Of a stretch of 61,766 nucleotides of DNA, positions 23,403 through 52,671 are shown in pieces. Made by a program: the position numbers and the translations under genes. This DNA comes from Muribaculaceae bacterium (GTDB lineage: Bacteria; Bacteroidota; Bacteroidia; Bacteroidales; Muribaculaceae), in NCBI GenBank assembly GCA_017483645.1, contig JAFUWD010000004.1, forward strand, positions 1 to 61,766, given 5' to 3'. Position 1 is the stretch's first letter. Each line of letters begins with the position of its first letter. The notes under the pieces were generated by a model that saw only the letters and a list, made by a program, of their open reading frames with translations, was not told the DNA's origin and did no database searches.

Positions 23403-24731
23403 TCACAGCCTTTGAAGCAAAGCGTCGCGCTGTCGGCAGAAGTCGGCAAACGTGTCGTAGACATCGGTGAGTGCCATGTTGGCATTGTCGGCCTGCATTT
23501 GATAGAGTGAGGCCGAATTATGGGCGGTGTCGCTCTTGCCCTGCAAGGCTCCCGACACGCCGGATGCCTGCTCCATCAGTTTGAGTTGAAGGTTAATCAT
23601 GTCGTAGGCACCGGCATCGGCTCCTGCGGCGATGATTTGCTCGGGGCGGGCATCGGAGCGACTGGGGTCATAAGGCAACAATCCGCCCGTACTGCTCCAC
23701 AACCGTCTCACGTCTTCCCAAGTGAAGCCTTCGGGCAAAGCCGTTTCGGGAAAGAGCAGCACACCCTTGGCGTTGGAACGAATCACTTGATCAACCATAG
23801 TTACCAGGCGGTTGACCAATCGTTGCTGGTCGATGACATCCTCCACCAGAGCATGCACCTCGCCATCGATGAGCGGGTACATCTTCACCACAAAGGGGTG
23901 TGAGCGGTGTAGCCACGGCGAGTCGTATTCGGCCAGCAGGTCGCCCATGGGGGTGAACCAGCGACAATGCCACACCATTGTCACCGACCATGTGCCTCGA
24001 CTCATCTGCTCGCGACTATCGAGAGTCCAGACTTCAATTGCACGGCATTTTCCCGTGCGCGAATACCAAAAATCGGTTCCCGAGTGCACATCGGCACCCA
24101 ATGCGGTGGCGGTCTGCGCCGTGCGTTCGTCGGAGTGGTCGCTGTAGAGGCGCCGCACCCAGGCGGCCTGACGGCGCGAGGTGCACTGCAACCGCTGCAA
24201 CAACTGCGCCAGACTCATATCGTGCAATTGCCCCACCAGTTCACAATCACGACCGCGCACGTCGGTCATCGCATTGACGAAAAAATGACTCAGGCTCACA
24301 TTCTCCACCACAGCCGTCTCACCGGGCATGGTGTGAACGCGCTGTACGCAACAACCCGAGATGACGAACTCCTCGAGTGCTCGGCTGTCGAGTTCGTCAA
24401 GTCGGTTGACCTCATGAATGGACTTCAACTTGTCGGGCAGGCGGGCAGGGCGTTCATCGATGACTTGAGCGCGAAAACGCCCCACAATGGTCTTCACCAG
24501 CTGACGGATAAGGTTGTTGGTAATCGGCTCACGGCCGTTTCGTGTGTAAAACGCTCTCTCGGTGACCCATCGCCCGTGCGCATCACGCACGACATCAGCC
24601 CACTGGTCGCCGTAGGCATAGCGTTTGTTCCTCAACCGGCAGGCACGCAAGGGCGCGGCCGCCATCCAAGCGTTGTAGGCCGCTCGGAGCACGGCCTGGT
24701 TGCGTTCGATAGTGCTTTTTGTGTTTTCCAT
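23403..24731 (-). CDS. Phage portal-like protein, isolated
   Basis: A 442-aa protein that resembles P22-type phage portal proteins: N-terminal YAYGDQW and NGREPITNNLIRQLVKTIVG, a central beta domain (about 130-270), the helix-rich part ending QASGVSGALQGKSDTAHNSA and LYQMQADNANMAL. The ATG at 24731 (MENTKSTIERNQ) is preferred to a start 60 nt upstream, as it follows an A/G-rich stretch and a -7 box. No terminase, capsid, protease or tail gene is next to it; both neighbours are ordinary Bacteroidales genes. It may be a phage remnant or a domesticated portal. Assignment is by recalled family features, not by a search. Confidence 0.65.
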   Translation of the reverse strand: MENTKSTIERNQAVLRAAYNAWMAAAPLRACRLRNKRYAYGDQWADVVRDAHGRWVTERAFYTRNGREPITNNLIRQLVKTIVGRFRAQVIDERPARLPDKLKSIHEVNRLDELDSRALEEFVISGCCVQRVHTMPGETAVVENVSLSHFFVNAMTDVRGRDCELVGQLHDMSLAQLLQRLQCTSRRQAAWVRRLYSDHSDERTAQTATALGADVHSGTDFWYSRTGKCRAIEVWTLDSREQMSRGTWSVTMVWHCRWFTPMGDLLAEYDSPWLHRSHPFVVKMYPLIDGEVHALVEDVIDQQRLVNRLVTMVDQVIRSNAKGVLLFPETALPEGFTWEDVRRLWSSTGGLLPYDPSRSDARPEQIIAAGADAGAYDMINLQLKLMEQASGVSGALQGKSDTAHNSASLYQMQADNANMALTDVYDTFADFCRQRDALLQRL

Positions 24732-24758
24732 GGTTCTTTTTTTGAAAAATGACGAGCG

Positions 24759-24766
24759 CAAAAATA
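24759..24766 (-). promoter_or_regulatory. Probable -7 box for the portal-like gene
   Basis: Minus-strand TATTTTTG fits TAnnTTTG, 27 nt upstream of the ATG at 24731. It suggests the gene is transcribed from a host-type promoter. Confidence 0.45.
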
Positions 24767-24829
24767 ATGAGTGACTGCCACAGGCAGCCACATCAAAAAA
24801 ATCAAAAGTCGAGGGGCTTTCGCTTTCCG

Positions 24830-26617: not shown

Positions 26618-28996
26618 ATGAGGAACAAATTATTCATTTTTGCGCTCCTGATGACATGCACATTGTGCATGGAGGCGCAGCAAACGATGTGGGTGCACAC
26701 CGGTCAAGTGAAGTGGGCGTTCACCACATCTCAGCTGGGACAAATGCCCATAGCCGATGCGACATCGGTGACCATCCTCGACAAAGTTTTTGCCGTGAGC
26801 GATATCGACAGCATCACTGTCGACAAGCAAGAATGGCCCGACAACAACATTGCCGTGACCTACAACGGCTCGAAAGCCCAAGTAACCGTGGCCGGCAACA
26901 TTGCAAAGAATATCACCCTGGCAACCGTCACCGGAGCCAATGTGGCCATCATCCAAGACCCCGAAGCTGTGGCCGACGAGTACACCTACACACTGAGCGG
27001 AACAAGCAGCAACGGGTCGTTCTGGATGGACGGCAAGTATAAAATGACGCTTGTGCTCGACAATCTGACGCTCACCAGCGCCGACAGCGCCGCCGTGAAC
27101 ATCCGCAACGGCAAGCGCATCGCCGTGACGCTTGTGGGTGACAATGTGCTTGCCGATGGAGCTTCTGGCAGCCAGAAGGGTTGCTTTGCCGTGAAGGGTC
27201 ATCCCGAAGTGGGAGGTAGCGGAAACCTCACCCTCACCGGCAATGCCAAGCACGCATTGTGGACGGGCGAATATCTGCAACTGAAAAAGAAATTCACCGG
27301 CACCATCACCGTGGCCAAGTCGGCCGGTGACGGCTTCAATATCAACCAGTATTTCCAACTCAATGGTGGCAACGTGCTGATTAACAACGTGGCCGACGAC
27401 GGCATCCAAGTGGGTGTCACCGACGACGAGACGGATGAATATAACGGACAAATACTGATTAACGGCGGCTCACTCAAAGTCACCGTGAGCGCAGCCGGCA
27501 CCAAGGGCCTGAAAGCCGACAGCCACATCAGCATCACCGGCGGAACGACCGACATCACTTCGAGCGCACCCGGTACTTGGGACACCACCGACCTCGACAC
27601 CAAGACCAGCGCCTGCATCAAGAGCGACAGCACCGTCACCATCACCGGCGACGACACACAAGTCACACTCAAGGCCACCGGCACCGGCGGCAAGGGCATC
27701 AATGCCGACACGGGCATCACCATCGGCGGCGGCACGGTGACGGCTACTACCACAGGAGCCATTTATACCTACACCTATAATTCCACCGTTTACACCGGTT
27801 CGACCGACGGCATCAAGACCGACGGAAACATCACCATCACCGGCGGAAACATTACCGCCAGCACCACGGGTGTGGCCAGCAAGGGCATCAAGTGCAAGGG
27901 CAACATGGTGGTGGATGGGGGAACCATCAAGTCGACCACCACCGGCGGTGCGCGCTGGGATGCCGTAGACAACGAAACCAAGGCCTGCGCGGCCCTGAAA
28001 GTGGGAGGAACGCTCACCACCAACGGCGGCACTTTCACGCTCAGCAGCAGCGGACAGGGTGGCAAAGGCATCAGTGGCGATGGCGTAATGACCTTCAACG
28101 ACGGTGATTTCACCATCAAAACCACCGGCACACGCTACACCTACGGCAGCACCGGTGGCGGCGGTTGGGGACCGGGCAGCTCCAGTGGCAGCAGCAACAA
28201 GCGTTCCTCGCCCAAGGGTATCAAATGTGATGCGGCCATCGTGTTTAACGGCGGCACCTTCAATGTGAGTGCCACCGGTTCGGGCGACGGCTCGGAGTGC
28301 ATCGAGTCCAAGAGCACACTCACCATCAACGACGGCACCATCGAGTGCAACGGCTATGACGACTGCATCAACTCGGCGGGCGAAATGAGAATCAATGGCG
28401 GAAAAGTGTATGTCAATGCCACCAACAACGATGGCCTTGACGCCAACAGCAACCTCATCATCACTGGCGGCGTGGTCGTGGCCTACGGCGCCTCCAGTCC
28501 TGAGTGTGGCCTCGATGCTATCGACGGCGAGGGCGGCGTGGCAGGCTACCTCTACATCACAGGCGGCTATGTGCTGGCCGTGGGCGGAGGCACATCAAAC
28601 CCGCACAGCCCCACCACCTCGATGGGCATCGGCACGGCGCAGCCTGTCATGATTTACAAAGGCACTCAGACGGCCAACACCAACTACGCACTGGGCACCA
28701 CCAGCAGCAATGTCATGGCCTACACAATGACCAAGACCTTCAGCGGTGGCGGTGGCGGCCGGCCCGGCGGCGGTGGCGGCAGCTCGCTGACCGTGGTGAT
28801 GAGCGCTCCGAAACTCACCAGCGGCACAACCTACAACTTTTACAGTGGCACATCGGTCAACACCGCCAAGGAAAACTGGCACGGCTTGTACTATAACGGC
28901 GACGCCGTGACGAGTACAGGCACATCCCAGGGAAGCAAGGCGGCATCCACCCCCTATTTTCAAATAGGAAACAGCAGCGGCGGATGGGGATGGTAA
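26618..28996 (+). CDS. Exported DUF4353 beta-helix protein (carbohydrate-binding-like)
   Basis: A 792-aa protein. Signal peptide at about 1-21 (MRNKLFIFALLMTCTLCMEA); a short module at about 22-75 ending VSDIDSITVD, shared in outline with many Bacteroidales secreted proteins; then a long DUF4353-type region of repeated turns (GGKGIN, KGIKC, GGT(I/V)) that predicts a right-handed beta-helix; a Gly/Ser/Trp-rich insertion at about 510-530; and a Gly/Arg/Pro-rich linker near 710-724 before a small C-terminal domain. The family is named carbohydrate-binding in databases but activity is unproven. Start chosen from the promoter at 26542-26572. Confidence 0.8.
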   Translation: MRNKLFIFALLMTCTLCMEAQQTMWVHTGQVKWAFTTSQLGQMPIADATSVTILDKVFAVSDIDSITVDKQEWPDNNIAVTYNGSKAQVTVAGNIAKNITLATVTGANVAIIQDPEAVADEYTYTLSGTSSNGSFWMDGKYKMTLVLDNLTLTSADSAAVNIRNGKRIAVTLVGDNVLADGASGSQKGCFAVKGHPEVGGSGNLTLTGNAKHALWTGEYLQLKKKFTGTITVAKSAGDGFNINQYFQLNGGNVLINNVADDGIQVGVTDDETDEYNGQILINGGSLKVTVSAAGTKGLKADSHISITGGTTDITSSAPGTWDTTDLDTKTSACIKSDSTVTITGDDTQVTLKATGTGGKGINADTGITIGGGTVTATTTGAIYTYTYNSTVYTGSTDGIKTDGNITITGGNITASTTGVASKGIKCKGNMVVDGGTIKSTTTGGARWDAVDNETKACAALKVGGTLTTNGGTFTLSSSGQGGKGISGDGVMTFNDGDFTIKTTGTRYTYGSTGGGGWGPGSSSGSSNKRSSPKGIKCDAAIVFNGGTFNVSATGSGDGSECIESKSTLTINDGTIECNGYDDCINSAGEMRINGGKVYVNATNNDGLDANSNLIITGGVVVAYGASSPECGLDAIDGEGGVAGYLYITGGYVLAVGGGTSNPHSPTTSMGIGTAQPVMIYKGTQTANTNYALGTTSSNVMAYTMTKTFSGGGGGRPGGGGGSSLTVVMSAPKLTSGTTYNFYSGTSVNTAKENWHGLYYNGDAVTSTGTSQGSKAASTPYFQIGNSSGGWGW

Positions 28997-29061: not shown

Positions 29062-29493
29062 ATGAGAAAGATTATATTGATTATCATGCTGGCCATTGTG
29101 GGGCTGAATGTTCAGGCCGATGGATTTGGCTATGTAAAATTCAACCTGACAGGTGGTAACGAGCAACCTTTTGCCGCCGATGGTCTGAAAATCACGTTCG
29201 ACAACGGAAATGCTGTGCTCACGCTGGCCGATGGCACCGTCAGCACATTGAACTTAGATGACATCAACTACTTTTACTTCACCGACGACGCCGGAACACC
29301 AACAGGGCTGAAAGGTGATGTGAACAACGACAAAGAAGTTGGTGTGGCCGACATTACAGCGCTCATCAACCTGCTGCTCACCGACGAGCAGATTACCGAT
29401 GCCGACTTGTTCTATCGTGCCGATGTGAACAGTGATGATGAAATCAGCATTGCTGATGTAACGGCACTCGTGAATTTGGTGCTTACCCAATAA
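29062..29493 (+). CDS. Small exported protein with dockerin type I repeats
   Basis: A 143-aa protein: signal peptide at 1-18; an N-terminal module at about 20-75 (FGYVKFNLTGGNEQPF to YFYFTDD) resembling the start of the upstream DUF4353 protein; and a paired dockerin at about 82-143, with GDVNNDKEVGVADITALINLL and DVNSDDEISIADVTALVNLVL as two calcium-binding EF-hand-like halves. No cohesin is encoded in the window, so a cellulosome-type partner is not implied. A strong terminator follows, so it is transcribed separately from the next operon. Confidence 0.85.
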   Translation: MRKIILIIMLAIVGLNVQADGFGYVKFNLTGGNEQPFAADGLKITFDNGNAVLTLADGTVSTLNLDDINYFYFTDDAGTPTGLKGDVNNDKEVGVADITALINLLLTDEQITDADLFYRADVNSDDEISIADVTALVNLVLTQ

Positions 29494-29517: not shown

Positions 29518-29557
29518 CCCCGTTTTGGTAGTCGCCGATGCCAAAACGGGGCTTTTT
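29518..29557 (+). terminator. Intrinsic terminator after the dockerin gene
   Basis: An 11-bp stem (29518-29528 with 29541-29551), 12-nt loop, then CTTTTTATT. It separates the dockerin gene from the VTC operon. Confidence 0.9.
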
Positions 29558-29646: not shown

Positions 29647-29654
29647 TAATTTTG
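29647..29654 (+). promoter_or_regulatory. Probable -7 box for the VTC operon
   Basis: TAATTTTG fits TAnnTTTG, 18 nt before the ATG at 29672; no convincing -33 box. With the terminator upstream it marks the start of the five-gene operon. Confidence 0.5.
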
Positions 29655-29671
29655 CGTTGAAATATAAACAA

Positions 29672-30463
29672 ATGAATATTTCAGGCGACAACTTCAGCCG
29701 GTTTGCCCCCATCAGTCTTGACGAGATGTCGGGAATCAAACTAATGAACCGCATTGACACCAAGTTTGTCACTACGGTTCCCTTGCTGCTGCGTCTGCTG
29801 AAACTGGCGCAAGACGACTACCGCATGCAAGAAATAGACGGATTGCGCAATATGACCTACGGCACCGTCTACTTCGACACACCGGCGCTTGACATGTTCA
29901 TCGCGCACCACAACGGACACTCCGGACGACAAAAAGTGAGAATCCGCACCTATGTGGACTCGCACATGGATTTCCTGGAAGTAAAAACGAAAAACAACCA
30001 CGGGCGCACGCGTAAAAAACGCATCTCGGTCACCGACGACAACCTGAGAGAGCCCGCCAAGGTGGCCTTCCTGAACCAGCACCTGCGATACGACCCCGAC
30101 GCGCTCACACCACGGCTGCAAAACCGCTTCAACCGCATCACACTGGTGAACCGCAGATGCACCGAGCGGCTCACCATCGACACCAATCTGCAATTTCACA
30201 ATCTGTTCACCGGCCGTGACTACTCACTGCCCACACTGGCCATTGTGGAACTAAAGCGTGACGGGCTACAACCGTCGCCCGTGCTTGAGATGCTGCGCCA
30301 ACTACGCATCATGCCCACGGGATTCAGCAAGTACTGCATCGGCTCACTGCTCACCGACCCCACGCTGAAACGCAACCGTTTCAAAGAACGGCTTCACACA
30401 CTGGAACGCCTCACCGGCAGTTCTTTTCACTTATACTCCCAACCTCAGCAACAACACACATTA
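29672..30463 (+). CDS. VTC-domain polyphosphate polymerase
   Basis: A 263-264-aa protein with one VTC domain over nearly its full length. Expected tunnel residues of the Vtc4 family are present: K31 in RIDTKF, R90 and R92 in KVRIRTY, K105/K107 in EVKTK, basic RTRKKR at 112-117, R161/R162, E193 in IVELKRD and K220 in GFSKY. Yeast Vtc4 makes polyphosphate from ATP with this fold; bacterial single-domain forms are less studied. No membrane helix here, so it probably works with the DUF4956 membrane protein next to it. The start at 29672 follows a -7 box; its stop overlaps the next ATG (30463-30466). The in-frame end is the TGA at 30464-30466. Confidence 0.88.
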
Positions 30464-31173
30464 TGAATACTGATTTTCTCGCATTGCTCACTCAATTCTT
30501 CACAACAGGAGATTTTGGACACATCTCATTAGCAACTTTTCTGCTCAACATGCTGTTTGTGTGGATAATCATCCACTTCTTGTACTTCCGCCGCAGCCAT
30601 CGACGTGATTTCTATTTCACCTTCATGTTGCTGGGAATCACCATCTACTTCCTGGTGTACTTCATGATTTATGTACTGGAGGATTTGAAAGGAAAGACAG
30701 GCATCGGCATCGGCATTGGCTTGTTCGGCATTTTCAGCATCATGCGCTACCGCACCGACGCCATGCCAGTGCGGGAAATGACCTATCTGTTCACCATCAT
30801 CTGCATGTCGGTTATCAATGCACTGGGGTCAACCATCAGCTTTGCCGAGCAACTGATTCCCAACATCATCATTCTGTTGGCCATCGGGCTGTGCGAGGGC
30901 TTGCTGCTTCGAGGCAAAGAGATGTCGAAACTTGTGCAATACGACCGCATTGAGCTCATCAAGCCCGAACGGCACGACGAACTGCTGGCCGACCTGCAAG
31001 AACGCACCGGGCTTGAAATCAAACGTATCGACGTAGGAGCCATCGACTTCCTGCGCGACATGGCCATGCTCAAAATCTACTACACCGACCCCGGCGTGGG
31101 GGCAAGCGACGACGCCGTGAACCATCAAAGTAAAATCACTCGACAAGAATGGGAAGACGTAAACCAAAATTGA
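30463..31173 (+). CDS. DUF4956 membrane protein
   Basis: A 236-aa protein with four hydrophobic segments in the first 140 residues (about 22-40, 52-72, 80-92, 110-128) and a soluble C-terminal domain of about 90 residues. The segment IFSIMRYRTDAMPVREMTYLF, just after the third helix, is the family hallmark. DUF4956 genes regularly sit beside VTC polymerases in bacteria, as here with a 4-nt overlap, so a complex in the inner membrane is likely: VTC on the cytoplasmic face and DUF4956 as anchor or conduit. The function is inferred from this association only. Confidence 0.88.
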   Translation: MNTDFLALLTQFFTTGDFGHISLATFLLNMLFVWIIIHFLYFRRSHRRDFYFTFMLLGITIYFLVYFMIYVLEDLKGKTGIGIGIGLFGIFSIMRYRTDAMPVREMTYLFTIICMSVINALGSTISFAEQLIPNIIILLAIGLCEGLLLRGKEMSKLVQYDRIELIKPERHDELLADLQERTGLEIKRIDVGAIDFLRDMAMLKIYYTDPGVGASDDAVNHQSKITRQEWEDVNQN

Positions 31174-31910
31174 TACGGCTCTTAGTGCTGATGCTGCTGG
31201 TGGGCAGCGTGGCCTTGCCGGTCAAAGCCGATGACAGCGGGCTCATCATATCGGTGGGAGCCGACAAGAAAGTGAATAAAAAACTCACCTTAGGCACCGA
31301 ACTGGAATGGCGCACACGCAACAATTGGCGCACGGCCGACCGATTGGCGCTTTCGCTCGACGCACAATACCGACTCCTGCCCTGGCTCAAAGCCGGAGCA
31401 GGTTATGTGCTGCTGGTAGACAACAACCCCGAGAAAATATCCTATCACACTGGGGGCGATCTGAATAATTGGCGACCTTCTTACTGGGGCACACGTCACC
31501 GCCTGAATGCCACCCTCACGGGAACTTACACTTACAAAAAACGTTTCTCGGTGTCGCTGCGTGAGCGATATCAGTTCACTTGGCGCCCCACACACACCAC
31601 ACGGCGCTACGATTTCGACAATGCATACTGGGAAGACACCGATGTCGACAGCCGATGCAAGCATGTGTTGCGCTCCCGGCTCAAGCTGGAATACAACCCT
31701 CGCAAATGCCCCGTCGATTTCTGGAGCAGTGTGGAGTTTTTCAACGCATTGCGACTTGAGAAAACACGCGTGCAGGTGGGAGCCGACTATAAAATCCAGA
31801 AAAAACACACCCTGTCACTCTACTATCGCTACCAGGCCGTGAACGGCGATGACGACGAAACCGAGACCGACATGCACATGGTGGGACTGGGCTATAACTT
31901 CAAATTTTGA
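31149..31910 (+). CDS. DUF2490 protein, probable outer-membrane beta-barrel
   Basis: A 253-aa exported protein: signal peptide at about 1-27 (LIRLLVLMLLVGSVALPVKA), then amphipathic strands throughout (LTLGTELEWRTRNNW, FSVSLRERYQFTWRPT, HTLSLYYRYQAV) and a C-terminal MVGLGYNFKF with terminal phenylalanine. DUF2490 members are predicted small outer-membrane barrels. It overlaps the DUF4956 gene by 25 nt and is followed 3 nt later by the lipoprotein gene, so it belongs to the operon. In this context it could be the outer-membrane element of the system. Confidence 0.85.
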   Translation: MGRRKPKLIRLLVLMLLVGSVALPVKADDSGLIISVGADKKVNKKLTLGTELEWRTRNNWRTADRLALSLDAQYRLLPWLKAGAGYVLLVDNNPEKISYHTGGDLNNWRPSYWGTRHRLNATLTGTYTYKKRFSVSLRERYQFTWRPTHTTRRYDFDNAYWEDTDVDSRCKHVLRSRLKLEYNPRKCPVDFWSSVEFFNALRLEKTRVQVGADYKIQKKHTLSLYYRYQAVNGDDDETETDMHMVGLGYNFKF

Positions 31911-31913
31911 ACA

Positions 31914-33131
31914 ATGAAAAGCGTAATCAAGCATATCATCATTGCAATGGCCGCAGGCATCACCATTATGCTCGCCGCCACAGGCTGCCAAAAGGATGAC
32001 ACCAATTTTGACGAGGTGATAGCCGAATACGAGGCTCAGCCCGACATCAACATCGAGTGGGACAACAGCGCGCTCGCCGAGGCTCCCGATGAGCCGGTGA
32101 CCGATGAAACCGACGAATTTTTCAACGACTACGTGGAGAATACCAACTTCTCCAACACCATTGCCATCGACTACAACGGCAACAGCGTCACCGTCAGCGG
32201 GACGGTGGGCGGTGTGATGGTGGAAACCGACGGCGCACATGTGACAGTGACTTCGGCCAAGGGGCATGTGAACTACATTTTGAGCGGAAGCACCACCAAC
32301 GGCTCCTTCAAGATTTACAGCTTCAACAAATATTGCATCACCCTGAACGGCGTGAGCATCACCAATCCTGCCGGAGCGGCCATCAACAGCCAAAGCAGCA
32401 AATCGTGCTACATTGTGCTGCCCGAGGGAACCGACAATCATCTGGCCGACGGTGCCACCTACACCGAAGTGGAACTTGAGGACCAAAAGGCTGCACTCTT
32501 CAGCGAGGGACAAATCATCTTTTCGGGCAGCGGTTCACTCACTGTCAACGCCACGGGCAAAGCGGGCATCACCAGCGACGACTACATCCGCTTCAGGCCC
32601 GGCCCGCACATCAACGTCACCAGCACGGCCGGCAATGGTGTAAAAGGGAAGGATGCGGTGTTTATCGACGGCGGGGTGCTCAATATCACCGCAAGCGCAT
32701 CCGGAGCCAAGGGCATCAACAGCGAAGGGCTTGTGAACGTGCGCGGCGGACGCACCACAGCCATCACCACAGGCAGCACACGCATTGAGGGCACCGACAC
32801 CACCACTTGCGCCGCACTGAAGGTCGACAGCGTGCTCAATATCAGTGCCGGCACGCTGCGGCTCAAAGCCACCGGCGAGGGCGGAAAAGGCATCAACTGC
32901 AATCAAAGCATCACCCTGAGTGGCGGCGATGTGGCTGTTGTGGCAACGGGCATCAAGGAGGCAGGCTCGCCCAAGGGCGTGAAATGCGACCAAAACATGA
33001 CCATGACCGGCGGCCACCTCTACAGCTACAGCGCATGGGCTGCTCCGCTCGATGTGAACGGAATACTCACCGTAGCCAGCAACCGTACCCGGTATGAAAC
33101 CAAAAAACGCTCAATAAACATCCTATTTTGA
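31914..33131 (+). CDS. Surface lipoprotein with DUF4353 beta-helix
   Basis: A 405-aa lipoprotein: signal peptide ending in the lipobox LAATGC with the lipidated cysteine C25. The residues after it, QKDDT, match the Bacteroidetes lipoprotein export signal (K followed by two acidic residues) that directs lipoproteins to the cell surface. An acidic spacer (about 30-75) precedes a DUF4353-type beta-helix at about 80-395 with repeated (K/R)GIN and GG(D/R) turns. It is a close paralogue of the next gene but lacks its dockerin. It lies 3 nt after the DUF2490 gene. Confidence 0.85.
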   Translation: MKSVIKHIIIAMAAGITIMLAATGCQKDDTNFDEVIAEYEAQPDINIEWDNSALAEAPDEPVTDETDEFFNDYVENTNFSNTIAIDYNGNSVTVSGTVGGVMVETDGAHVTVTSAKGHVNYILSGSTTNGSFKIYSFNKYCITLNGVSITNPAGAAINSQSSKSCYIVLPEGTDNHLADGATYTEVELEDQKAALFSEGQIIFSGSGSLTVNATGKAGITSDDYIRFRPGPHINVTSTAGNGVKGKDAVFIDGGVLNITASASGAKGINSEGLVNVRGGRTTAITTGSTRIEGTDTTTCAALKVDSVLNISAGTLRLKATGEGGKGINCNQSITLSGGDVAVVATGIKEAGSPKGVKCDQNMTMTGGHLYSYSAWAAPLDVNGILTVASNRTRYETKKRSINILF

Positions 33132-33142
33132 ACACACCACAC

Positions 33143-34486
33143 ATGAAACTCAAAATACTGCTCTTTTGCATGGTCGCAAGTCTGACCGCAGCGGCTGCCA
33201 CCTACACCTTTGTGGGCGATGTCAACAACGATGGCGAGGTTAACATTGCCGATGTGACATCGCTGGTGAACATTGTACTCAGCGAAGACGCCTCAAGCAA
33301 TGCGATGGCCGATGTCAACGAAGATGATGAAGTGAGTGTGGCCGACATCACCTCGCTGGTGAATCTGGTTCTCGACAGTGAGGCGCCACGAAAAGTGACG
33401 CTCGACGACAGCGACCTGACCGAGGCAGCCGATGTGGTGGAAGACGACGAGGACGCACCCGCCTATGGCGACTACATTGAGAACGCATCCTTCACCAGCA
33501 CGGTCACCATCACCTACGACGGCAACAGTGCAGCCGTAAGCGGAAGGCCCACGGGCGTGAGCATCACCACCAGCGGCGCCCATGTGACCGTGATTTCGGC
33601 CATCAAAAACGTAAAATATGTGCTCACCGGAAGCAGTAGCGACGGCTCGTTCAAGATTTACAGCGAAAAGAAATTCTGCCTCACGCTCAATGGTCTGGAC
33701 CTCACCAATCCCAGTGGTGCCGCCATCAACAACCAATGTGGAAAAACGCTCTATCTGGTGCTGCCCGAGGGAACCGACAACCATCTGGCCGATGGCGAAA
33801 CCTATACCGAGGTGGAGCTTGAGGACCAAAAGGCGGCTTTCTTCAGCGAGGGGCAAATCATCTTTTCGGGCAAAGGCCGCCTGAATGTGGATGCTGTGGG
33901 CAAAAGCGGCATCACCAGCGACGACTACATCCGTTTCAGGCCGGGCACACACATCAACATCAACAGCAGCGCCAATCATGGCGTGAAGGCCAACGACGGC
34001 ATCTTCATCGATGGCGGAGTGCTCAATATCCGGGTCACCGCCAATGGAGCGAAAGGCATCAACTGCGGAGGCGTCATGGAAGTGAACGGCGGACGCACCA
34101 CCGTTATCACCACCGGCGCACCCGTTATTGAAAGCACCGAGCTGGGCAACGACACCACATCGTGTGCCGCACTGAAAGCCGACACGCTGCTTACCATCAC
34201 CGGCGGCACACTTTGCTTGAAATCCTCGGGCGATGGCGGCAAGGGCATCAACTGCAACAACAACATTGTGATGACCGACGGCAATGTCACCATCGTGGCG
34301 CAGGGGGTAAAAGATTTAGCCGCACCCAAAGGCGTGAAATGTGACGGCACCCTTTCGGTGACAAGCGGTGCCTTCTACACCTACAGTTCCAAAAGCAAGC
34401 CACTCGACGTGGCCGGCGGTGTAACTGTGAGCGACGGCTATAGAGCCTACACCGAAACTGAGCGATCGGTTAACATTGAGTTTTAG
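33143..34486 (+). CDS. Secreted dockerin plus DUF4353 beta-helix protein
   Basis: A 447-aa protein: signal peptide at about 1-20; a dockerin pair right behind it at about 24-78 (GDVNNDGEVNIADVTSLVNI and DVNEDDEVSVADITSLVNL); an acidic linker; then a DUF4353 beta-helix at about 115-440. Dockerins are more often C-terminal, so an N-terminal one is unusual. The helix shares long identical stretches with the upstream gene, for example LPEGTDNHLADG and DQKAA.FSEGQIIFSG. The ATG at 33143 is preferred; a TTG at 33128 in frame is within the upstream stop region. It is last in the operon, ahead of a terminator. Confidence 0.85.
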   Translation: MKLKILLFCMVASLTAAAATYTFVGDVNNDGEVNIADVTSLVNIVLSEDASSNAMADVNEDDEVSVADITSLVNLVLDSEAPRKVTLDDSDLTEAADVVEDDEDAPAYGDYIENASFTSTVTITYDGNSAAVSGRPTGVSITTSGAHVTVISAIKNVKYVLTGSSSDGSFKIYSEKKFCLTLNGLDLTNPSGAAINNQCGKTLYLVLPEGTDNHLADGETYTEVELEDQKAAFFSEGQIIFSGKGRLNVDAVGKSGITSDDYIRFRPGTHININSSANHGVKANDGIFIDGGVLNIRVTANGAKGINCGGVMEVNGGRTTVITTGAPVIESTELGNDTTSCAALKADTLLTITGGTLCLKSSGDGGKGINCNNNIVMTDGNVTIVAQGVKDLAAPKGVKCDGTLSVTSGAFYTYSSKSKPLDVAGGVTVSDGYRAYTETERSVNIEF

Positions 34487-34542: not shown

Positions 34543-34586
34543 AAAATCAGCGATTGACCTATAAAACAAAGCCAATCGCTGATTTT
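34543..34586. terminator. Terminator at the end of the VTC/DUF4353 operon
   Basis: A perfect 14-bp stem (34543-34556 with 34573-34586) with a 16-nt loop and T-rich 3' arm. It separates the operon from the two-component genes. Confidence 0.85.
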
Positions 34587-34638: not shown

Positions 34639-35733
34639 ATGACCACCGCATCTTTCAAAAAATTGGTGAACCAAGAAAAACTCATCTACTTGGTCGTTTG
34701 GATTATTTGGTACATCGCTCCACTGGTAGTGATTTACTCACACTCGCAGCTCAACGAGGAGCGGCCCTTTGAGTGGAGGCCTGTCTTGATAATGTGGGAA
34801 AACATCACTGTGTTTTTTGTGGCGTTTATCCTGCACAACTGGCTGCTGGCACCGCTGCTTGTGTTCAAACACAAAACGAAATTGTACGTGGCGGGCATCT
34901 TACTGCTGATGGCAACTTTCACTGTCTTTCAATGCTCACACCATCCGCGGGGGCCGCGGCATCCGCGAGAGATGGCAATGGAAAAAAACAAACCCGAGCC
35001 GCACATGCGGCACATGCCCCCGCCCAACCGCCCACCAATGGGTATGCACGACGTGGGAGCCTTTGCGCTCTTCTTGTTTATGATTGGCGCAAACTTGGGT
35101 GTAAAACAATATTTCAAATCACAAGAAGACCATAAGCAATACGAAGAGTTGAAGCAAGCCAGCCTGGAACAAGAATTGGAGTATTTGAAATACCAAATCA
35201 ACCCACACTTCTTCATGAACACGCTCAACAATATTCATGCCTTGGTCGACATCGACCCCGACCGAGCCAAAACGAGCGTGGTGGAGCTGTCCAAACTGAT
35301 GCGTTACCTGCTCTATGAGGGTACCCAGGAGCGCATCGACTTGCAACGAGGCATCGACTTTTTGGAACACTATTTCTCACTGATGCGTCTGCGTTACACC
35401 GACAAGGTGAGAATCAACTTCTCTGTGCCGTCGGAGATTCCCGCAGTGCAGATTCCGCCACTGCTCATGGTGCCCTTTGTGGAAAACGCTTTCAAACATG
35501 GAGTGAGCTATCAAAACCTGTCGTTTGTTGATGTGACTATGACCATCGAGGACAACATTCTCCACTTTGCCTGCAGCAACAGCAAGAACGACAGCCAGCA
35601 AGAGCGTGGCGGAGTGGGATTGGCCAATGTGCGCAAGCGGCTCGACCTCATCTACGGCGACAGCTACCACCTCACCACCACCGACGGCCCCACAGTCTAC
35701 TCTATGCAACTCGACATTCCCCTAAACGTGTAA
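34639..35733 (+). CDS. LytS-type sensor histidine kinase
   Basis: A 364-aa inner-membrane kinase. Four hydrophobic segments lie at about 17-33, 55-75, 83-98 and 140-156. A loop at about 99-138, predicted periplasmic if the N-terminus is cytoplasmic, is rich in His, Met and Pro (H101, H102, H108, H122, H125, H137; M112, M114, M123, M126, M134, M136; C99). A short coiled coil (160-182) leads to the kinase core with the phospho-acceptor H190 in QINPHFFMNTLNN and the ATPase N-box VPFVENAFKHG. It pairs with the LytTR regulator 25 nt downstream. The signal sensed is unknown; the loop suggests metal. Confidence 0.9.
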   Translation: MTTASFKKLVNQEKLIYLVVWIIWYIAPLVVIYSHSQLNEERPFEWRPVLIMWENITVFFVAFILHNWLLAPLLVFKHKTKLYVAGILLLMATFTVFQCSHHPRGPRHPREMAMEKNKPEPHMRHMPPPNRPPMGMHDVGAFALFLFMIGANLGVKQYFKSQEDHKQYEELKQASLEQELEYLKYQINPHFFMNTLNNIHALVDIDPDRAKTSVVELSKLMRYLLYEGTQERIDLQRGIDFLEHYFSLMRLRYTDKVRINFSVPSEIPAVQIPPLLMVPFVENAFKHGVSYQNLSFVDVTMTIEDNILHFACSNSKNDSQQERGGVGLANVRKRLDLIYGDSYHLTTTDGPTVYSMQLDIPLNV

Positions 35734-35758: not shown

Positions 35759-36481
35759 ATGATACGCTGCATTGCAATCGACGACGAACCACTGGCCCTG
35801 CAACAACTGGCCTCGTATGTGAAAAAAGTGTCTTATCTGGAACTCATTGGCCAATGCCAAAGTGCCATCGAAGCCCGTGAATTGTTGGAAAAAGAGCAAG
35901 TCGACGCCATCTTCATCGACATCAACATGCCCGACCTGAACGGACTGGACTTTGTGCGCTCACTCGAAAACCCGCCTCTGGTGGTATTCACCACGGCCTA
36001 TAGCGAATACGCTGTGGAGGGCTTCAAGGCCAACGCCATCGACTATCTGCTCAAGCCATTCGACCTGAATGAATTCAGGCGTGCGGCTGAAAAATTGAAG
36101 ACACAATTCGAATTGCTTAACGCCGCGCAGGTGAGCCAAGTCGATGAGGACGATGCCATGTTCCTGAAAAGTGAATACAAGGTGGTGAGGGTCAACATAA
36201 AGGACATCCGTTACATCGAGGCCATGAGTGAGTACCTGCGCATCTACACCACCACACTCAGCCGCCCGGTGATAGTGCTGCTGAGCATGAAAAAAATGGA
36301 AGAGCGACTGCCGTCGGCACAATTCATGCGAATCCACCGCTCCTACATCGTGAACCTCAAGAAAATTCGTGAGGTGAGCAAGAACCATGTGACCATTGAT
36401 GCCGACACATCGCTCCCCATTGGCGACATTTACAAAGAAACTTTCAATGCCTACATCGCCAGCAAATTCCTGACAAGATGA
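35759..36481 (+). CDS. LytTR-family response regulator
   Basis: A 240-aa cytoplasmic regulator. Receiver domain at about 1-120 with D54 in FIDINMPDLNG as the phosphorylation site and K104-type lysine in YLLKPFD. A LytTR DNA-binding domain at about 137-238 (VRVNIKDIRYIEAMSEYLRIY, MRIHRSYIVNL). It is the cognate of the kinase just upstream. LytTR regulators usually bind a pair of short direct repeats; I see no obvious pair in the neighbouring promoters, so the target is open. Confidence 0.93.
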   Translation: MIRCIAIDDEPLALQQLASYVKKVSYLELIGQCQSAIEARELLEKEQVDAIFIDINMPDLNGLDFVRSLENPPLVVFTTAYSEYAVEGFKANAIDYLLKPFDLNEFRRAAEKLKTQFELLNAAQVSQVDEDDAMFLKSEYKVVRVNIKDIRYIEAMSEYLRIYTTTLSRPVIVLLSMKKMEERLPSAQFMRIHRSYIVNLKKIREVSKNHVTIDADTSLPIGDIYKETFNAYIASKFLTR

Positions 36482-42868: not shown

Positions 42869-45097
42869 TCACTGGAGCGTGAAACGCACCTTCGACAAGA
42901 TACGGTCGCTGGAAGTGCCCAGCAGAGCTTCAAAGTCGCCCGGCTCTGCCACCCACTGGTGGCTGTTGTTGTCGTAGAAACTCAAGGCGTCACCGCCGAT
43001 GGTAATCGACACATCGCAGCTCTCGCCGGGCTGCAAGTACACTTTCTTGAAGCCTTTCAGTTCTTTGACAGGACGCGGCAGCGATGATTTGAGGTCGCTC
43101 ACATAGAGTTGTACCACCTCGGCCCCGGCACGGTTGCCAGTGTTTTTCACATTCACTGTGAAGGTGATGCTGTCGCCCTTCGTTATCGACTTGGCACTGG
43201 CCACGGGCTTACCCAACTCGAAGGTGGTGTAACTCAAGCCGTGACCGAAAGCAAAGGTGGGCTTCGTCTTGAAATGGTCCACGCCACGGTAGCCCACATA
43301 AAGCCCCTCCTTGTATTCCAAATCCCACACTTCTTCATTGGCACGCTTCACGCCGGGATAAGCGTTCAGCCGATGGGCACCCACGTCGTTGAGCGATTCG
43401 GGCCAGGTGAAAGGCAACTTGCCACTGGGATTCACATCGCCCACCAGCACGCTGGCCAGCGCCGTGCCGGCCTCGCTGCCGATGAACCACCCCTGCACTA
43501 TGGCGGGCACTTTCTTGACCCAAGGCATGGCCACCGCATTGCCACTGACATTGACCACCACAAGATTCTTATTGGCTGCGGCCAGCGCCTCAATCACCCG
43601 GTCTTGCCCATAAGGCATGGCGAAGTCCAGGCGGTCGTACTCCTCGGCATCCTGATGGTTGCTCTTGTTGAGGCCACCAAAGAAAATCACCACATCGGCC
43701 TGGCGGGCTTTGGCCACGGCTTCGGCGATGAGCTGGTCGGGCGTGCGGTCGTCCTTGAGGTCTTGACCCGTGGTGACACCATTGTACTCACCGGTGACAT
43801 CACCCACATATCCACGGGCGTAATCCACGGTGGCCAAGCCGGCCAGCCGTGCCTTGAGCCCGTCGAGCGGAGAAATCTCTCGCTGCACCTTGAGCGAGCT
43901 GGAGCCACCGCCCACGGTCATCATTTTCACCGCGTTCTCACCCACCACAAGCACCTTGTGAGTCTTGGCCAGGTCGATGGGCAACACGCCATTCTGGTTC
44001 TTGAGCAGCACAATGCCCTCACCGGCAATGTCGCGCGCGGCCTGATAGTGTTCTTCGCTGCACATCGAGCCGAAAGGACGATGTGCGTTGAGCGTGGTGC
44101 GCAGGAAAAGGCGCAGCACACGGCGCACCTTGTCGTCGAGCTCCCGGGTGGTGTATTTGCCCTCTAAAATGAGTTTTTTGTAGGGTTGGGCCAGATAATA
44201 ACTGTCGTAGGCATTGGGATAGCCCTCGTTCAAGCCATTGGTCCACGAGCCAAACTCCATGTCAAGGCCACCTACAATGGCTTGATGAGTGTCGTGTGCG
44301 CCACCCCAGTCACTCACCACCACGCCGTCAAAACCCCAGTCACGCTTCAAAATGTCGACCAGCAGATAGGGATTCTGGCAGTTGTGGATATTTTTGTAGA
44401 GGTTATAGGCCCCCATGATGCCCCATGCATGCCCCTGCTGCACAGCGGCCTTGAAAGCGGGCAGATAAATTTCGTGCAGTGTTCGCTCGTCCACGATGAC
44501 ATTGGTGGTGTGGCGATTCAGCTCGTTATTGTTCAGGGCATAGTGCTTTACGCAAGCCGCCACACCTTGCGACTGAAGGCCACGCACATATGGCGCCACC
44601 ATCGTCGAGGCCAGATAGGGGTCTTCACCCATATACTCAAAGTTGCGTCCGTTGAGCGGCGTGCGATAGATGTTCACACCCGGCCCAAGAATCATGTCCT
44701 TGCTGCGATAGCGCGCCTCCTCGCCCAACGCCACGCCATAGCGGTGCGCCATAGCGGGATTCCAGGTCGCGGCCAGGCAGGTCAATGCCGGGAATGCCAC
44801 ACACGAGTCGTTGGTCTGGCCGGCTTGCTCCCACTCGTCCCACAGCACATCGGGGCGCACTCCGTGCGGTCCGTCATCGGTCCAAAAATCACGGATGCCC
44901 AAGCGCTTGATACCCGGCGACGAGAACTTGCTCTGCGCATGGATAATGGCGATTTTATCATCGAGTGTGAGCCTCGACATCAAGTCGTCGATACGCTCAT
45001 TCTCGCTGAGCGATTCGTCAAGGTAGGCCGGCGCTTTTTGCGCACCCAAAGCCAGCGACATCCACAAGAATGCCACAAAAAAAACGTTTTTTTTCAT
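42869..45097 (-). CDS. bglX: GH3 beta-glucosidase (BglX-like)
   Basis: A 742-aa exported glycoside hydrolase family 3 enzyme. Signal peptide at about 1-19; N-terminal TIM-barrel domain with the nucleophile D263 in VVVSDWGGAHDT; the second alpha/beta domain from about 380; and a fibronectin III-like C-terminal domain at about 650-735 (VTFTVNVKNTGNRAGAEV-type strand). It would release glucose from beta-linked oligosaccharides. It is last in the minus-strand locus SusC-SusD-binding protein-GH128-GH3, 30 nt after the GH128 gene. Confidence 0.93.
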   Translation of the reverse strand: MKKNVFFVAFLWMSLALGAQKAPAYLDESLSENERIDDLMSRLTLDDKIAIIHAQSKFSSPGIKRLGIRDFWTDDGPHGVRPDVLWDEWEQAGQTNDSCVAFPALTCLAATWNPAMAHRYGVALGEEARYRSKDMILGPGVNIYRTPLNGRNFEYMGEDPYLASTMVAPYVRGLQSQGVAACVKHYALNNNELNRHTTNVIVDERTLHEIYLPAFKAAVQQGHAWGIMGAYNLYKNIHNCQNPYLLVDILKRDWGFDGVVVSDWGGAHDTHQAIVGGLDMEFGSWTNGLNEGYPNAYDSYYLAQPYKKLILEGKYTTRELDDKVRRVLRLFLRTTLNAHRPFGSMCSEEHYQAARDIAGEGIVLLKNQNGVLPIDLAKTHKVLVVGENAVKMMTVGGGSSSLKVQREISPLDGLKARLAGLATVDYARGYVGDVTGEYNGVTTGQDLKDDRTPDQLIAEAVAKARQADVVIFFGGLNKSNHQDAEEYDRLDFAMPYGQDRVIEALAAANKNLVVVNVSGNAVAMPWVKKVPAIVQGWFIGSEAGTALASVLVGDVNPSGKLPFTWPESLNDVGAHRLNAYPGVKRANEEVWDLEYKEGLYVGYRGVDHFKTKPTFAFGHGLSYTTFELGKPVASAKSITKGDSITFTVNVKNTGNRAGAEVVQLYVSDLKSSLPRPVKELKGFKKVYLQPGESCDVSITIGGDALSFYDNNSHQWVAEPGDFEALLGTSSDRILSKVRFTLQ

Positions 45098-45127
45098 GTC
45101 GGTGAACGAGGTTGGAATAAAATGGTT

Positions 45128-46579
45128 TTATTGGTTCAATAATATCATGACCAGCGCGGTGACATCGGCCACACTCGTTTCGTTGTCATCGTTGACATCG
45201 CTGCGTTCGTTCGATGTTTGGCGCATCACCAGGTCGACCAGTGTGGTGACATCGGCTATCGACACTTCACCGTCGCCATTCACATCGCCCTTCAGAAAGC
45301 CACCTTGCGACTCAATCCGCATCCATGCCAGCTTGCAGGTGGAGCTATACTTACCCGTAAAGGTGAGGCGGTGTTTGCCTGCCGGCAAAGTGACAGTGGC
45401 CTCGTAGGTCTGCCACTTGTCTTGGGTCGATGTCATACCGGTGTAGGGCAGGTCGAGATTGGCCACCAGCACACCGTCGCATTTCAATTCCAGACGAGGG
45501 GTGGAGATGAAGTTCATGCTCGAGTGGCGCAGCGTGAGTTTGTATTCACCTGCTTGAGGCACTTCCACCAGGTACTCACCCACCGAGCCGATGCCAAATG
45601 AGCTGATGTTCAGTTTCACGTCACTCTCCCCGTCGGTGTTGGGACGGAGCTGCACCCCCTTGCTGTAAACATAGTTGGTGGCAGGAATAAGTTCCGCCGG
45701 GCGATAGTAGTAGGTGGTGTCGAAGGGCGACATATAGGTGTAAATTTGCCCCATCCAGGTGAGTGTGCCTGCAGGCGGCAAGTGTGTCACCATGTTGGGG
45801 GTGATAAGCAGCCTGTAATAGGGGGCGGCATTGCTGCCGCGAGCCTTGAACCAGGCATAACGATATACATAGGGACTAAGCTCCAGATCCTGAATTTTCT
45901 GCACCATGGTATTCATTTGAGAAATGGAGTCCACAGTGCCTTCCCAAGCACAGAACTCGGTGAGCCACACCTGCTTGCCATATTTCTTGGCAAAATTCTC
46001 CACAAAGCCGATTTGGGCCGAGGGAGAGTTCATGTAGCAGTGAAGGGCCAAATAGTCGATACGAGCCTGGGGATAAGCGGCCAGAAACGCGTCCATCCAC
46101 TGTTCGGGCTGGTAGGTGTTGCCGTCGTTGATGGCACCGTCGGGGTAGTTGAGCGCCGGAGCCACCAGTTTGAGGCCAAACTCGTCGGCAATGGCCTCTA
46201 AGCGGGGCCACAGGGCAGCAGCTTGCTGGGGTGTCATGTTGGCCTGGGCCCTGAAGTTGGGCTCATTGAATCCCAGCAGATATTTGGCATCGGGGTGCTC
46301 GGTGTAGAACGAGCGCAGCGCCGACTCATTGAAATTGCCATTCCAAGCCATGGGCACAAACTCCATCTCAGCATCGGCTCCGCCCACCACATCGCGCACA
46401 TAGGACGTGGGGGTGGGTCCCCAGTTATAAGTCCACGACACTCCAGGCGACAATGAGTGAATCTCAGCGGGATAACCAAATGCGTTCTCACTGGCTCCGC
46501 GTTTGAAGCTGCGTGCAGGTTGTGCGGTCAGGCTCACGGCCATCGACACCAGCACCGCAAAAAACAATAACTTTCTCAT
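45128..46579 (-). CDS. GH128-like endo-beta-1,3-glucanase with carbohydrate-binding and dockerin modules
   Basis: A 483-aa exported enzyme: signal peptide at 1-20; catalytic barrel (Asl1/GH128 type) at about 25-275, with E106 in GFNEPNF as likely acid/base and E208 in WLTEFCAWEG as likely nucleophile; a beta-sandwich CBM6-like domain at about 300-425 (GEYLVEVPQAGEYKLTLRHS); and a C-terminal dockerin pair at about 430-483. GH128 enzymes cut beta-1,3-glucans such as curdlan or laminarin. The ATG at 46579 starts the signal peptide; an upstream GTG at 46630 is less likely. It suggests beta-1,3-glucan as target of the locus. Confidence 0.85.
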   Translation of the reverse strand: MRKLLFFAVLVSMAVSLTAQPARSFKRGASENAFGYPAEIHSLSPGVSWTYNWGPTPTSYVRDVVGGADAEMEFVPMAWNGNFNESALRSFYTEHPDAKYLLGFNEPNFRAQANMTPQQAAALWPRLEAIADEFGLKLVAPALNYPDGAINDGNTYQPEQWMDAFLAAYPQARIDYLALHCYMNSPSAQIGFVENFAKKYGKQVWLTEFCAWEGTVDSISQMNTMVQKIQDLELSPYVYRYAWFKARGSNAAPYYRLLITPNMVTHLPPAGTLTWMGQIYTYMSPFDTTYYYRPAELIPATNYVYSKGVQLRPNTDGESDVKLNISSFGIGSVGEYLVEVPQAGEYKLTLRHSSMNFISTPRLELKCDGVLVANLDLPYTGMTSTQDKWQTYEATVTLPAGKHRLTFTGKYSSTCKLAWMRIESQGGFLKGDVNGDGEVSIADVTTLVDLVMRQTSNERSDVNDDNETSVADVTALVMILLNQ

Positions 46580-46680
46580 GGTTTGTACTCTATGTTTATG
46601 CTTGGAAATGTTTAATAAAAGTTTTCTCACCCGGCCCGGAGATTCTGCCGGGCCGGGTAGGAAAACCGGTTAATAGTCAA

Positions 46681-47562
46681 TTACTCAGCGGGGTTGGTGT
46701 GTCCACCGGTCATGACGTGCTCAATGAGGTAGGTGACATCGGCAATTCCCACCTCACCGTCGTGGTTCACGTCGCAGGTGTCGCCAGTCACAGGCTCGGG
46801 CGTTTCCTCTACAAGACCCTTGGTGTAGAAGAAGATGTTGTCCATGTGGAGCTCAGCACCGGCCACGCCACCACTCAGTGTCCAGAAGTAGTTGCTCCTG
46901 TACGCCTTGGCACCGCCTTCGGTGGCCTCCCACACATCATCCTGATTGATAGGTGCGCTGGTAGCGATTTGTTTCAGCACGCTGTAGGGAATGTCGAAAT
47001 AGTACCATTCACCGTCATTCTCATAGGTACCCACATTGATGTAGAGTTTACCACCGTCATCAAACTGTCCGTTGCCCACCGACATTTTGGCCGACCCTAT
47101 ACCGATTGCGTGAACCACATCGGGGTTACCCTTGATGGCGAAGTGCAGGTAGTAGTTCTCGTCGAGGAAGCTCAAATCCAGGGGCACATCGCTCACGAAT
47201 CCCTGACCCGACCAATTTTGTGCGCCCGACACGCGGATGGCAAAGTGGTTCTCCTGCTCGCCGAACGAGTTCTCACCGCCTTCACCGCCGTCGGAAATGC
47301 CTACATAAGTGCCATCCCAGAACCAATCGTGTGTGGTTTCCTCATTGATGCGCAGGTCGAATTTGATGCCCTGCTCGGTAACCGATTCCATGGCCTCGGC
47401 CACACCGGTGCTCACGGCGATGGGAACAAAGTTGTGGGCATTTTCCCAATCAAACTTATCGTAGTTACCGGTCACGTCGTTGTAAGCCTTGGTAACATAC
47501 TGTGCGCTGGCCAGTGCAGAGCCAGCAAGCAGCAATGCTGCGATAGCGAAAATCTTTTTCAT
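46681..47562 (-). CDS. Exported glycan-binding-like protein with half dockerin
   Basis: A 293-aa protein: signal peptide at about 1-20, a beta-rich region at about 25-255 (HFAIRVSGAQNWSG, YLHFAIKGNPDVVHAIGIG, AELHMDNIFFY), and one dockerin-type half at about 263-285 (CDVNHDGEVGIADVTYLI). It is not a lipoprotein. Its place between SusD and the glucanase is where SusE/SusF-like surface glycan-binding proteins are found, so glycan binding is inferred. No catalytic residues seen. Gaps to its neighbours are 64 and 101 nt. Confidence 0.7.
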   Translation of the reverse strand: MKKIFAIAALLLAGSALASAQYVTKAYNDVTGNYDKFDWENAHNFVPIAVSTGVAEAMESVTEQGIKFDLRINEETTHDWFWDGTYVGISDGGEGGENSFGEQENHFAIRVSGAQNWSGQGFVSDVPLDLSFLDENYYLHFAIKGNPDVVHAIGIGSAKMSVGNGQFDDGGKLYINVGTYENDGEWYYFDIPYSVLKQIATSAPINQDDVWEATEGGAKAYRSNYFWTLSGGVAGAELHMDNIFFYTKGLVEETPEPVTGDTCDVNHDGEVGIADVTYLIEHVMTGGHTNPAE

Positions 47563-47626
47563 TTTTTGTGATTTTAAAAGTTAGTAAAAAATTTGTATTT
47601 TATTAATTTTATGTCTTGCAATATTA

Positions 47627-49288: not shown

Positions 49289-49325
49289 CGTTGTTTTATT
49301 TTCAAAGGTCATACGTTTCGGTTAC

Positions 49326-52418: not shown

Positions 52419-52466
52419 CGGTATTATTTTTTTCGTTTGATTGAATGCAGGTTATAAAATCTGCCG

Positions 52467-52499
52467 CAAAGTTAAGCTATCGCGCGCATTCACACCAAA
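52467..52499 (-). promoter_or_regulatory. Promoter of the susC operon
   Basis: Minus-strand TTTG (52499-52496), 21 nt, TAACTTTG (52474-52467), about 49 nt upstream of the susC ATG. Confidence 0.7.
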
Positions 52500-52639
52500 T
52501 AATAAACCTCACAAAAACCTCACTTTTTGAGAACAAGGTCAAAACCAGCATCACACATAATCGGCTGATTTATTTTGCTTTATGAAATTTATATGTTGTA
52601 AAACATAAAATATTCAACCTCAACTTGGCGATTTTTGCC

Positions 52640-52647: not shown

Positions 52648-52671
52648 CAGCACAAGAAAACCACACAAGCC

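Follow-up and report, generated by a model that had tools for sequence, protein, structure and literature searches.

What is made, and where is it taken, by a five-gene block of a Muribaculaceae bacterium that joins a gene for a VTC-domain polymerase to genes for the cell envelope? The block lies in contig JAFUWD010000004.1 of assembly GCA_017483645.1, of which positions 1 to 61,766 were analysed (the window). On its forward strand follow the genes for a VTC protein, a DUF4956 membrane protein, a DUF2490 barrel, a Cthe_2159 lipoprotein and a protein with dockerin and Cthe_2159 domains. The first-pass annotation had listed these five genes with spacings of -4, -25, +3 and +11 nucleotides, and both genes and spacings agree with the frame coordinates and with Pfam matches well over the cut-offs (VTC, 100.3 bits against a cut-off of 23; DUF4956, 176; DUF2490, 84; Cthe_2159, 153 and 148). 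The carbohydrate-binding family Cthe_2159 (PF14262) is the DUF4353 of that annotation under its current Pfam name. The five-gene architecture is confirmed as real; it is conserved, and more belongs to it than was first described. Tentatively, and as an assessment that stays somewhat short of probable, we read the block as an envelope-spanning polyanion unit, in which a polyanion, probably polyphosphate (polyP), would be synthesized in the cytosol and exported through DUF4956 and DUF2490.

Conservation of the gene block and its linked two-component pair

In a sample of 119 genomes spread evenly over the family, the window's own included, VTC and DUF4956 were detected in the same 29 genomes, VTC never without DUF4956. 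DUF2490 exceeded the cut-off in 32 genomes, i.e. all 29 with VTC plus three of the 90 others (G035, G046 and G065; G and L numbers are our labels for genomes and loci), and at an E-value of 0.001 in 38, the six additional matches being weak and without VTC (9/90 others). Cthe_2159 was found in 43 genomes, 28 of the 29 with VTC (G047 is without) and 15 of the 90 others. The Fisher P values for association with VTC, for genomes that are not independent, are 1e-24 for DUF2490 and 3e-15 for Cthe_2159. VTC is located directly upstream of DUF4956 in all 29 loci (the window plus 28). DUF2490 is located directly downstream of DUF4956 in all but the rearranged L082 (28 loci), and in 11 of the 25 family trios with more than 2.5 kb downstream Cthe_2159 comes next.

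A scan of named genome contigs gave at least 554 relatives, of which the best 80, that is the closest, were kept (two repeat family contigs, L122 being L074 and L132 being L079). VTC was located upstream in 76 of these loci by script and in L185, L189 and L194 by inspection, L195 being without; DUF2490 was next in 68 of the 76 loci with more than 1 kb downstream by script, and in L189 and L194 by inspection; and Cthe_2159 was next in 33 of 64 other Bacteroidales trios. Of 247 genomes sampled from the phylum, 43 had VTC, all with DUF4956, which itself was present in 68, and 45 of the 48 VTC places lay within 600 bp of DUF4956. From the 73 DUF4956 places 28 loci were taken; VTC was located upstream in 19 of them, and in 10 the next gene was DUF2490; among these 10, Cthe_2159 was next in one (L088) and CotH was near (within 5.5 kb) in five. 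According to these counts, where the window has Cthe_2159 beside the trio, some other Bacteroidota families have CotH in its vicinity. Conservation of the order beyond this genome, on which the first reading had been made to depend, thus holds often for four genes, but the exact five-gene form was found in only 5 of 137 mapped loci (the window, L078, L129, L142 and L169). The remark that no CotH is present is likewise correct for the nine block proteins (Pfam) but not for the genome, which gave six CotH matches, the five listed ones being located on other contigs. Arylsulfotransferase-like genes were observed near CotH and VTC-DUF4956 in L097, L107 and L111 of other Bacteroidota (label confirmed by Pfam for one L111 protein, the rest by clustering with it).

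A LytS-type kinase gene, followed by a LytTR regulator gene, starts 152 nucleotides after the last gene of the five. Among trios with sufficient flank, such a kinase was found within 6 kb in 3 of 20 from the family, 1 of 10 from the phylum sample and 9 of 54 from the named contigs (L122 repeating L074), the chance linkage being about 1.5% per locus by our own estimate; PF06580 matches number three in the window's genome and 0 to 4 in 12 congeners. Bacteroides cellulosilyticus L194 has the order DUF2490, Cthe_2159, kinase and LytTR as in the window, and in L126 and L153 the pair is located upstream of VTC. Of the 18 VTC-linked kinases, some of them as much as about 8 kb away, one is a repeat; in a kinase tree of 41 rows the remaining 17 all fell together with two others in one 19-row set with support of 99/98, a one-lineage result that may be biased by the profile, made from close members, with which the kinases were found. 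On the DUF4956 tree the kinase label changes 12 times and clusters not beyond shuffles; the linkage was therefore gained or lost several times over, or short contigs hide it, the kinases still being one lineage. Because of this linkage and descent we count the pair with the block, which hence does not end at 34486 as first proposed. Between predicted helices 3 and 4 the VTC-linked kinases carry a variable loop rich in His, Pro, Arg and Lys, which account for 15-25 of 40 residues in 18/18, the other kinases having mostly 7-13 (exceptions are L210, L220 and L223 with 15-22; for four no value was obtained). The loop is a possible metal or polyanion sensor, but as its net charge appeared mixed by eye we make no claim for a basic loop as polyanion detector.

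The encoded proteins from the cytosol to the predicted surface components

The VTC profile retrieved the yeast Vtc4 structures (E 1.3e-6), and in an alignment read by eye K31, R90, R92, K105, R155, E193 and K220 of the window protein match Vtc4 K200, R264, R266, K281, R361, E426 and K458, all seven positions being invariant or at least 90% conserved (36 of 49 VTC sequences). All seven count as tunnel residues of Vtc4. Substitutions R264A, R266A and E426N serve to impair catalysis of Vtc4 (PMC9911596). The tunnel residues, to which the first reading had been tied, are therefore present by sequence alignment with Vtc4, and together with the Pfam match they point to a VTC-type polymerase. No SPX domain was found in this 264-amino-acid protein, VTC being the only domain listed by Pfam.

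Bacterial polyP is usually described as made by polyphosphate kinase (PPK) (PMC10657179). PPK1 was matched in none of the 29 family genomes with VTC and in 12 of the 90 without (P 0.037), these 12 falling in three genera, with few independent cases, and PPK2 was matched in none of the 119. Since neither PPK was detected in the family VTC genomes (the window's own is 79% complete), the one polyP synthase known for these genomes may be VTC, and PPK1 and VTC are possibly alternative polyP synthases in the family. Most family genomes without VTC also have neither PPK. In genus g25, PPK1 was observed in three genomes (G025, G046 and G065) and VTC in one (G080).

The DUF4956 model (predicted local distance difference test, pLDDT, 84) shows five long helices within residues 1-150 and, at the C-terminus, a domain of ferredoxin-like type; G86, R95, R97, T98 and F110 are invariant (49 of 57 sequences). 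By charge placement, the sequence RRSHRR, R95/R97 and the C-terminal domain would face the cytoplasm. The PDB lists gave neither a Vtc1-like nor another clear fold, which does not exclude one. Two apparent variants were rejected: a VTC-DUF4956 fusion of 542 amino acids in L194 arises from consecutive N letters in the record, and the 430-amino-acid DUF4956 of L189 has a wrong upstream start. A frame in which DUF4956 and DUF2490 are joined (L171, 6471-7880), at a contig end of a metagenome-assembled genome, may be a fusion or an assembly error and was not used.

DUF2490, a family that figures in print as putative porins of unknown function (PMC4827864), was modelled as a beta-barrel that agrees with the 12-strand fold of KdgM and NanC, porins for acidic oligosaccharides which head its VIA list at 11-16% identity. 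The modelled fold and basic lumen are shared with these porins, but Pfam listed no KdgM-family match down to E 0.1, and the gene is linked to VTC and not to a sugar locus. Among inward positions more than 85% conserved, 12 are basic and 3 acidic (114 of 117 sequences), the inward side being assigned from hydropathy, without coordinates or a control barrel; the net charge is +15. The outer-membrane element proposed earlier is thus supported by a modelled barrel with basic lumen that is nearly confined, within the family, to VTC genomes.

After its lipobox Cys the window lipoprotein continues C-Q-K-D-D, in agreement with the lipoprotein export signal (LES) of Bacteroidota surface lipoproteins, the optimal signal of Capnocytophaga canimorsus being C-X-K-(D/E)2-X (PMC5080379). 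A lipobox is present in 46 of 48 Cthe_2159 proteins that directly follow DUF2490, 42 by pattern and four by eye (L070, L081, L086 and L088), L133 and L166 being without. The sequence C-x-[N/K/S]-D-D was found in 35 of the 48, the window included, or in 39 if D is allowed at the third place, and K at +3, as in the Capnocytophaga signal, in eight including the window. Five of 27 other Cthe_2159 proteins match the lipobox pattern, all resembling ordinary signal peptides by eye; the second Cthe_2159 copy of L169, missed by the pattern, looks lipoprotein-like by eye. The lipoprotein is homologous to the solved founder of its Pfam family (PDB 4peu, E 4.7e-16; also 4phb), from which the window proteins differ in that they lie beside VTC, one as a predicted surface lipoprotein and the other fused to a dockerin. 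The two displayed proteins carry net charges of -14 (lipoprotein) and -27 (dockerin fusion), and 9 of 9 checked relatives are acidic too. Of the proposal that both bind or display the polymer, the surface-type lipoprotein stands, but binding is not supported at these charges; being acidic, the proteins are unlikely to bind polyP directly unless Ca2+ or something else forms a bridge. Dockerin type I pairs are present in 29062-29493 and, N-terminally, in 33143-34486, despite no detected cohesin; with no cohesin match in the genome (79% complete), cohesin-based attachment was rejected.

A candidate polyanion unit and its alternatives

Under the envelope-spanning reading, the best of those considered here, VTC would polymerize a phosphate polymer in the cytosol, most likely polyP from ATP, and DUF4956 would take the chain at its invariant arginine cluster on the cytoplasmic face and move it across, or anchor it at, the inner membrane. 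The arginine-rich lumen of DUF2490 would then let the polymer reach the surface, where the acidic, probably Ca2+-binding lipoprotein and its secreted dockerin sibling may, at the exit, form a surface layer of polyanion and Ca2+ or cap it, the linked LytS/LytTR pair possibly sensing the envelope and setting expression. Export of polyP specifically is a plausible prediction; the identity of the polymer, its transport and direction, the role of Ca2+ and the regulation we infer. A wider proposal, that VTC-DUF4956-DUF2490 constitutes PPK-independent polyP secretion in Gram-negative bacteria, with a polyP/Ca2+/acidic beta-helix layer and a LytS/LytTR sensor, across Bacteroidales of gut and rumen, is rather unlikely in our judgement. 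If the envelope-spanning reading holds, these gut bacteria would own a route of polyP export without the usual enzyme. With the constant partners of VTC lying in the envelope, whether abundant bacteria of gut and rumen carry polyP at the surface becomes a directly testable question; DUF4956, DUF2490 and the Bacteroidota Cthe_2159 proteins gain a shared candidate function, and the sensor kinase offers a handle.

The VTC-DUF4956 module is known, and what is new here is the Bacteroidota variant with a barrel, a surface lipoprotein and a linked two-component pair. In streptococci and clostridia the genes for CotH, a polyphosphate polymerase and DUF4956 are contiguous with pelDEADAFG (PMC7112168). 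This accessory set (CotH/polymerase/DUF4956/DUF4832) shares with the block the polyphosphate-polymerase-type gene and DUF4956; no CotH, DUF4832 or Pel gene was recognised in the block, whereas an outer-membrane barrel, a surface lipoprotein and the linked pair are added. In NELoc-2 of the Gram-positive Clostridium perfringens, VTC genes each stand beside a membrane protein of 222-226 amino acids, called tubulin/FtsZ, near CotH, and no DUF2490 or Cthe_2159 is described in the parts consulted (PMC2879425, PMC11677781); our guess is that this membrane protein is DUF4956. Yeast VTC couples cytosolic synthesis to translocation via a channel with basic residues (PMC9911596). The tunnel residues are shared with this eukaryotic complex (Vtc1/3/4) and the coupling of synthesis to a channel is a proposed analogy, but the block protein has no SPX domain, and DUF4956, for which the PDB lists gave no Vtc1-like fold, is its partner in the membrane. 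The same neighbouring DUF4956 and DUF2490 genes, BT3498-BT3499 of Bacteroides thetaiotaomicron, are listed, without discussion in the part consulted, in an iron-response table (-7.6 fold in low iron, P 0.175; PMC10434189), and at this P value iron regulation was not used. A DUF4956 gene is merely listed for Bifidobacterium (PMC6848847) and a VTC gene merely named for Clostridium thermocellum (PMC7063780, PMC10503014), while a Riemerella 'DUF4353', listed as ferric-coprogen receptor (PMC11481396), was set aside as not relevant. Among the matches listed from the open-access literature, no description of the Bacteroidota VTC-DUF4956-DUF2490 set was found.

Several observations weigh against the envelope-spanning reading, which is built on genes, sequence comparison and models, the polymer and the activity being predicted. 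No solved structure significantly related to DUF4956 was found, whether by sequence or by fold, and its function as a channel is therefore a guess. Autotransporter barrels equal KdgM and NanC in Z for DUF2490, and KdgM-type barrels are sugar importers. The strongly acidic character of the displayed Cthe_2159 proteins speaks against simple polyP binding, and the contrast between PPK1 and VTC is weak in view of its P value, the three genera concerned and the many non-VTC genomes without PPK1. DUF4956 occurs without VTC in 25 of its 68 phylum genomes; VTC-DUF4956 is not followed by DUF2490 in L151, L164, L172, L187 and L192; DUF2490 is not next in 18 of the 28 phylum loci, some without VTC too; Cthe_2159 is next in about half of the Bacteroidales trios and in one of 10 more widely; and the kinase is near a minority of loci in each of the three sets. 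The 18 stretches upstream of VTC gave only scattered LytTR half-site matches and no recognisable site.

That VTC-DUF4956 might serve to regulate or prime an exopolysaccharide synthesized elsewhere, which the barrel and lipoprotein would handle, is suggested by the Gram-positive gene set beside pelDEADAFG (PMC7112168) and by the assignment of Cthe_2159 to a carbohydrate-binding family. Among the nine block proteins, however, Pfam gave no match to a glycosyltransferase or polysaccharide synthase, and in 57 clustered loci the unlabelled neighbour clusters hold at most eight genes (neighbours were not annotated singly), so that this explanation appears unlikely. An intracellular polyP store, in which VTC replaces PPK, DUF4956 is only an anchor and the genes for the envelope ride along under a shared regulator, would account for the lack of PPK1 and PPK2 matches in family VTC genomes and for the loci where VTC-DUF4956 alone is kept; the very tight association of DUF2490, that of Cthe_2159 at the genome level, the gene overlaps and the wide conservation make it quite unlikely.

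Capture of an acidic glycan would have Cthe_2159 bind pectin-like polygalacturonate and DUF2490 import it as KdgM does, VTC-DUF4956 being merely co-regulated; the Cthe_2159 founder binds polygalacturonate, and the best VIA rows of DUF2490 are oligogalacturonate and sialic-acid porins. A predicted adhesin cluster, a distant Cthe_2159 relative, also resembles a pectic-acid-binding protein (PMC9210967). Yet no lyase, glycosidase or sugar transporter was found among the nine block proteins by Pfam, DUF2490 tracks VTC within the family (29/29 versus 3/90), and the missing KdgM-family match counts in the same direction; we regard glycan capture as very unlikely. CotH-type kinases or similar enzymes might instead use exported polyP as phosphoryl donor on envelope proteins, in line with CotH near half of the phylum VTC-DUF4956-DUF2490 loci and in 28 of the 29 family VTC genomes; but CotH is also present in 59 of the 90 genomes without VTC and is near none of 20 family trios and 2 of 54 contig trios, CotH is not known to use polyP, and this explanation is highly improbable.

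Limits of the block and neighbouring features

The features are collected in Table 1. Terminators had been noted on each side of the five genes, and both were found, a 13-pair stem before and, by eye, a 14-bp inverted repeat after, the latter lying outside the limits of the terminator scanner because its loop is 16 nucleotides and the scanner maximum 8. The proposed start of the block at 29647 is that of a promoter element, the ATG of VTC itself being at 29672. This element, TAnnTTTG, which we take to be the Bacteroidota-type -7 consensus, is also located at -26 in the relative L078. Overlooked in the first-pass annotation, whose gene list is to this extent incomplete, were the two-component pair downstream and a Cthe_2159/dockerin pair upstream of the first terminator; Cthe_2159/dockerin pairs recur beside the VTC loci of some relatives.

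Table 1. Coordinates of the block and the adjoining features in the window
Feature	Position	Strand	Evidence
Large secreted Cthe_2159 protein, 792 amino acids from ATG, four matched stretches, upstream unit	26618..28996	+	PF14262 196 bits; net charge -12
Small secreted protein, C-terminal dockerin type I pair	29062..29493	+	PF00404 30.8 bits; homologues beside VTC in L072, L078, L079, L082
Terminator between upstream pair and VTC operon	29518..29551	+	13-pair stem, T tail
Putative promoter -7 element TAnnTTTG (TAATTTTG)	29647..29654	+	25 nucleotides before VTC ATG
Predicted VTC-domain (TTM) polymerase, 264 amino acids, isoelectric point about 10	29672..30466	+	PF09359 100 bits; Vtc4-aligned tunnel residues; net charge +13
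DUF4956 inner-membrane protein, five long helices and C-terminal ferredoxin-like domain (modelled)	30463..31173	+	PF16316 176 bits; model pLDDT 84
DUF2490 outer-membrane beta-barrel, basic lumen (modelled)	31149..31910	+	Pfam 84 bits; model
Cthe_2159 beta-helix, predicted surface lipoprotein (C-QKDDTNFDE)	31914..33131	+	PF14262 153 bits; PDB 4peu E 4.7e-16; lipobox
Secreted protein from ATG, N-terminal dockerin type I pair and Cthe_2159 beta-helix	33143..34486	+	PF14262 148 bits, PF00404 31 bits; net charge -27
Terminator-like perfect 14-bp inverted repeat, 34543-34556 / 34573-34586, 16-nucleotide loop, T-rich tail	34543..34586	+	Read by eye
LytS-type histidine kinase with His/Pro/Arg-rich loop (probably periplasmic)	34639..35733	+	PF06580 83 bits; kinase tree
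LytTR response regulator	35759..36481	+	PF04397 and PF00072

Elsewhere in the window, a frame of 462 amino acids at 23403-24791 on the reverse strand gave a match of 75 bits (E 4e-21) to the P22-like family of phage portal proteins, its surroundings being otherwise bacterial-looking. The region 42869-55557 encodes a GH3 protein, a glycosyl hydrolase with CBM6, SusD, a TonB-dependent (SusC-like) receptor and a Y_Y_Y-domain protein; our guess is a glycan utilisation locus, with beta-glucan as substrate.

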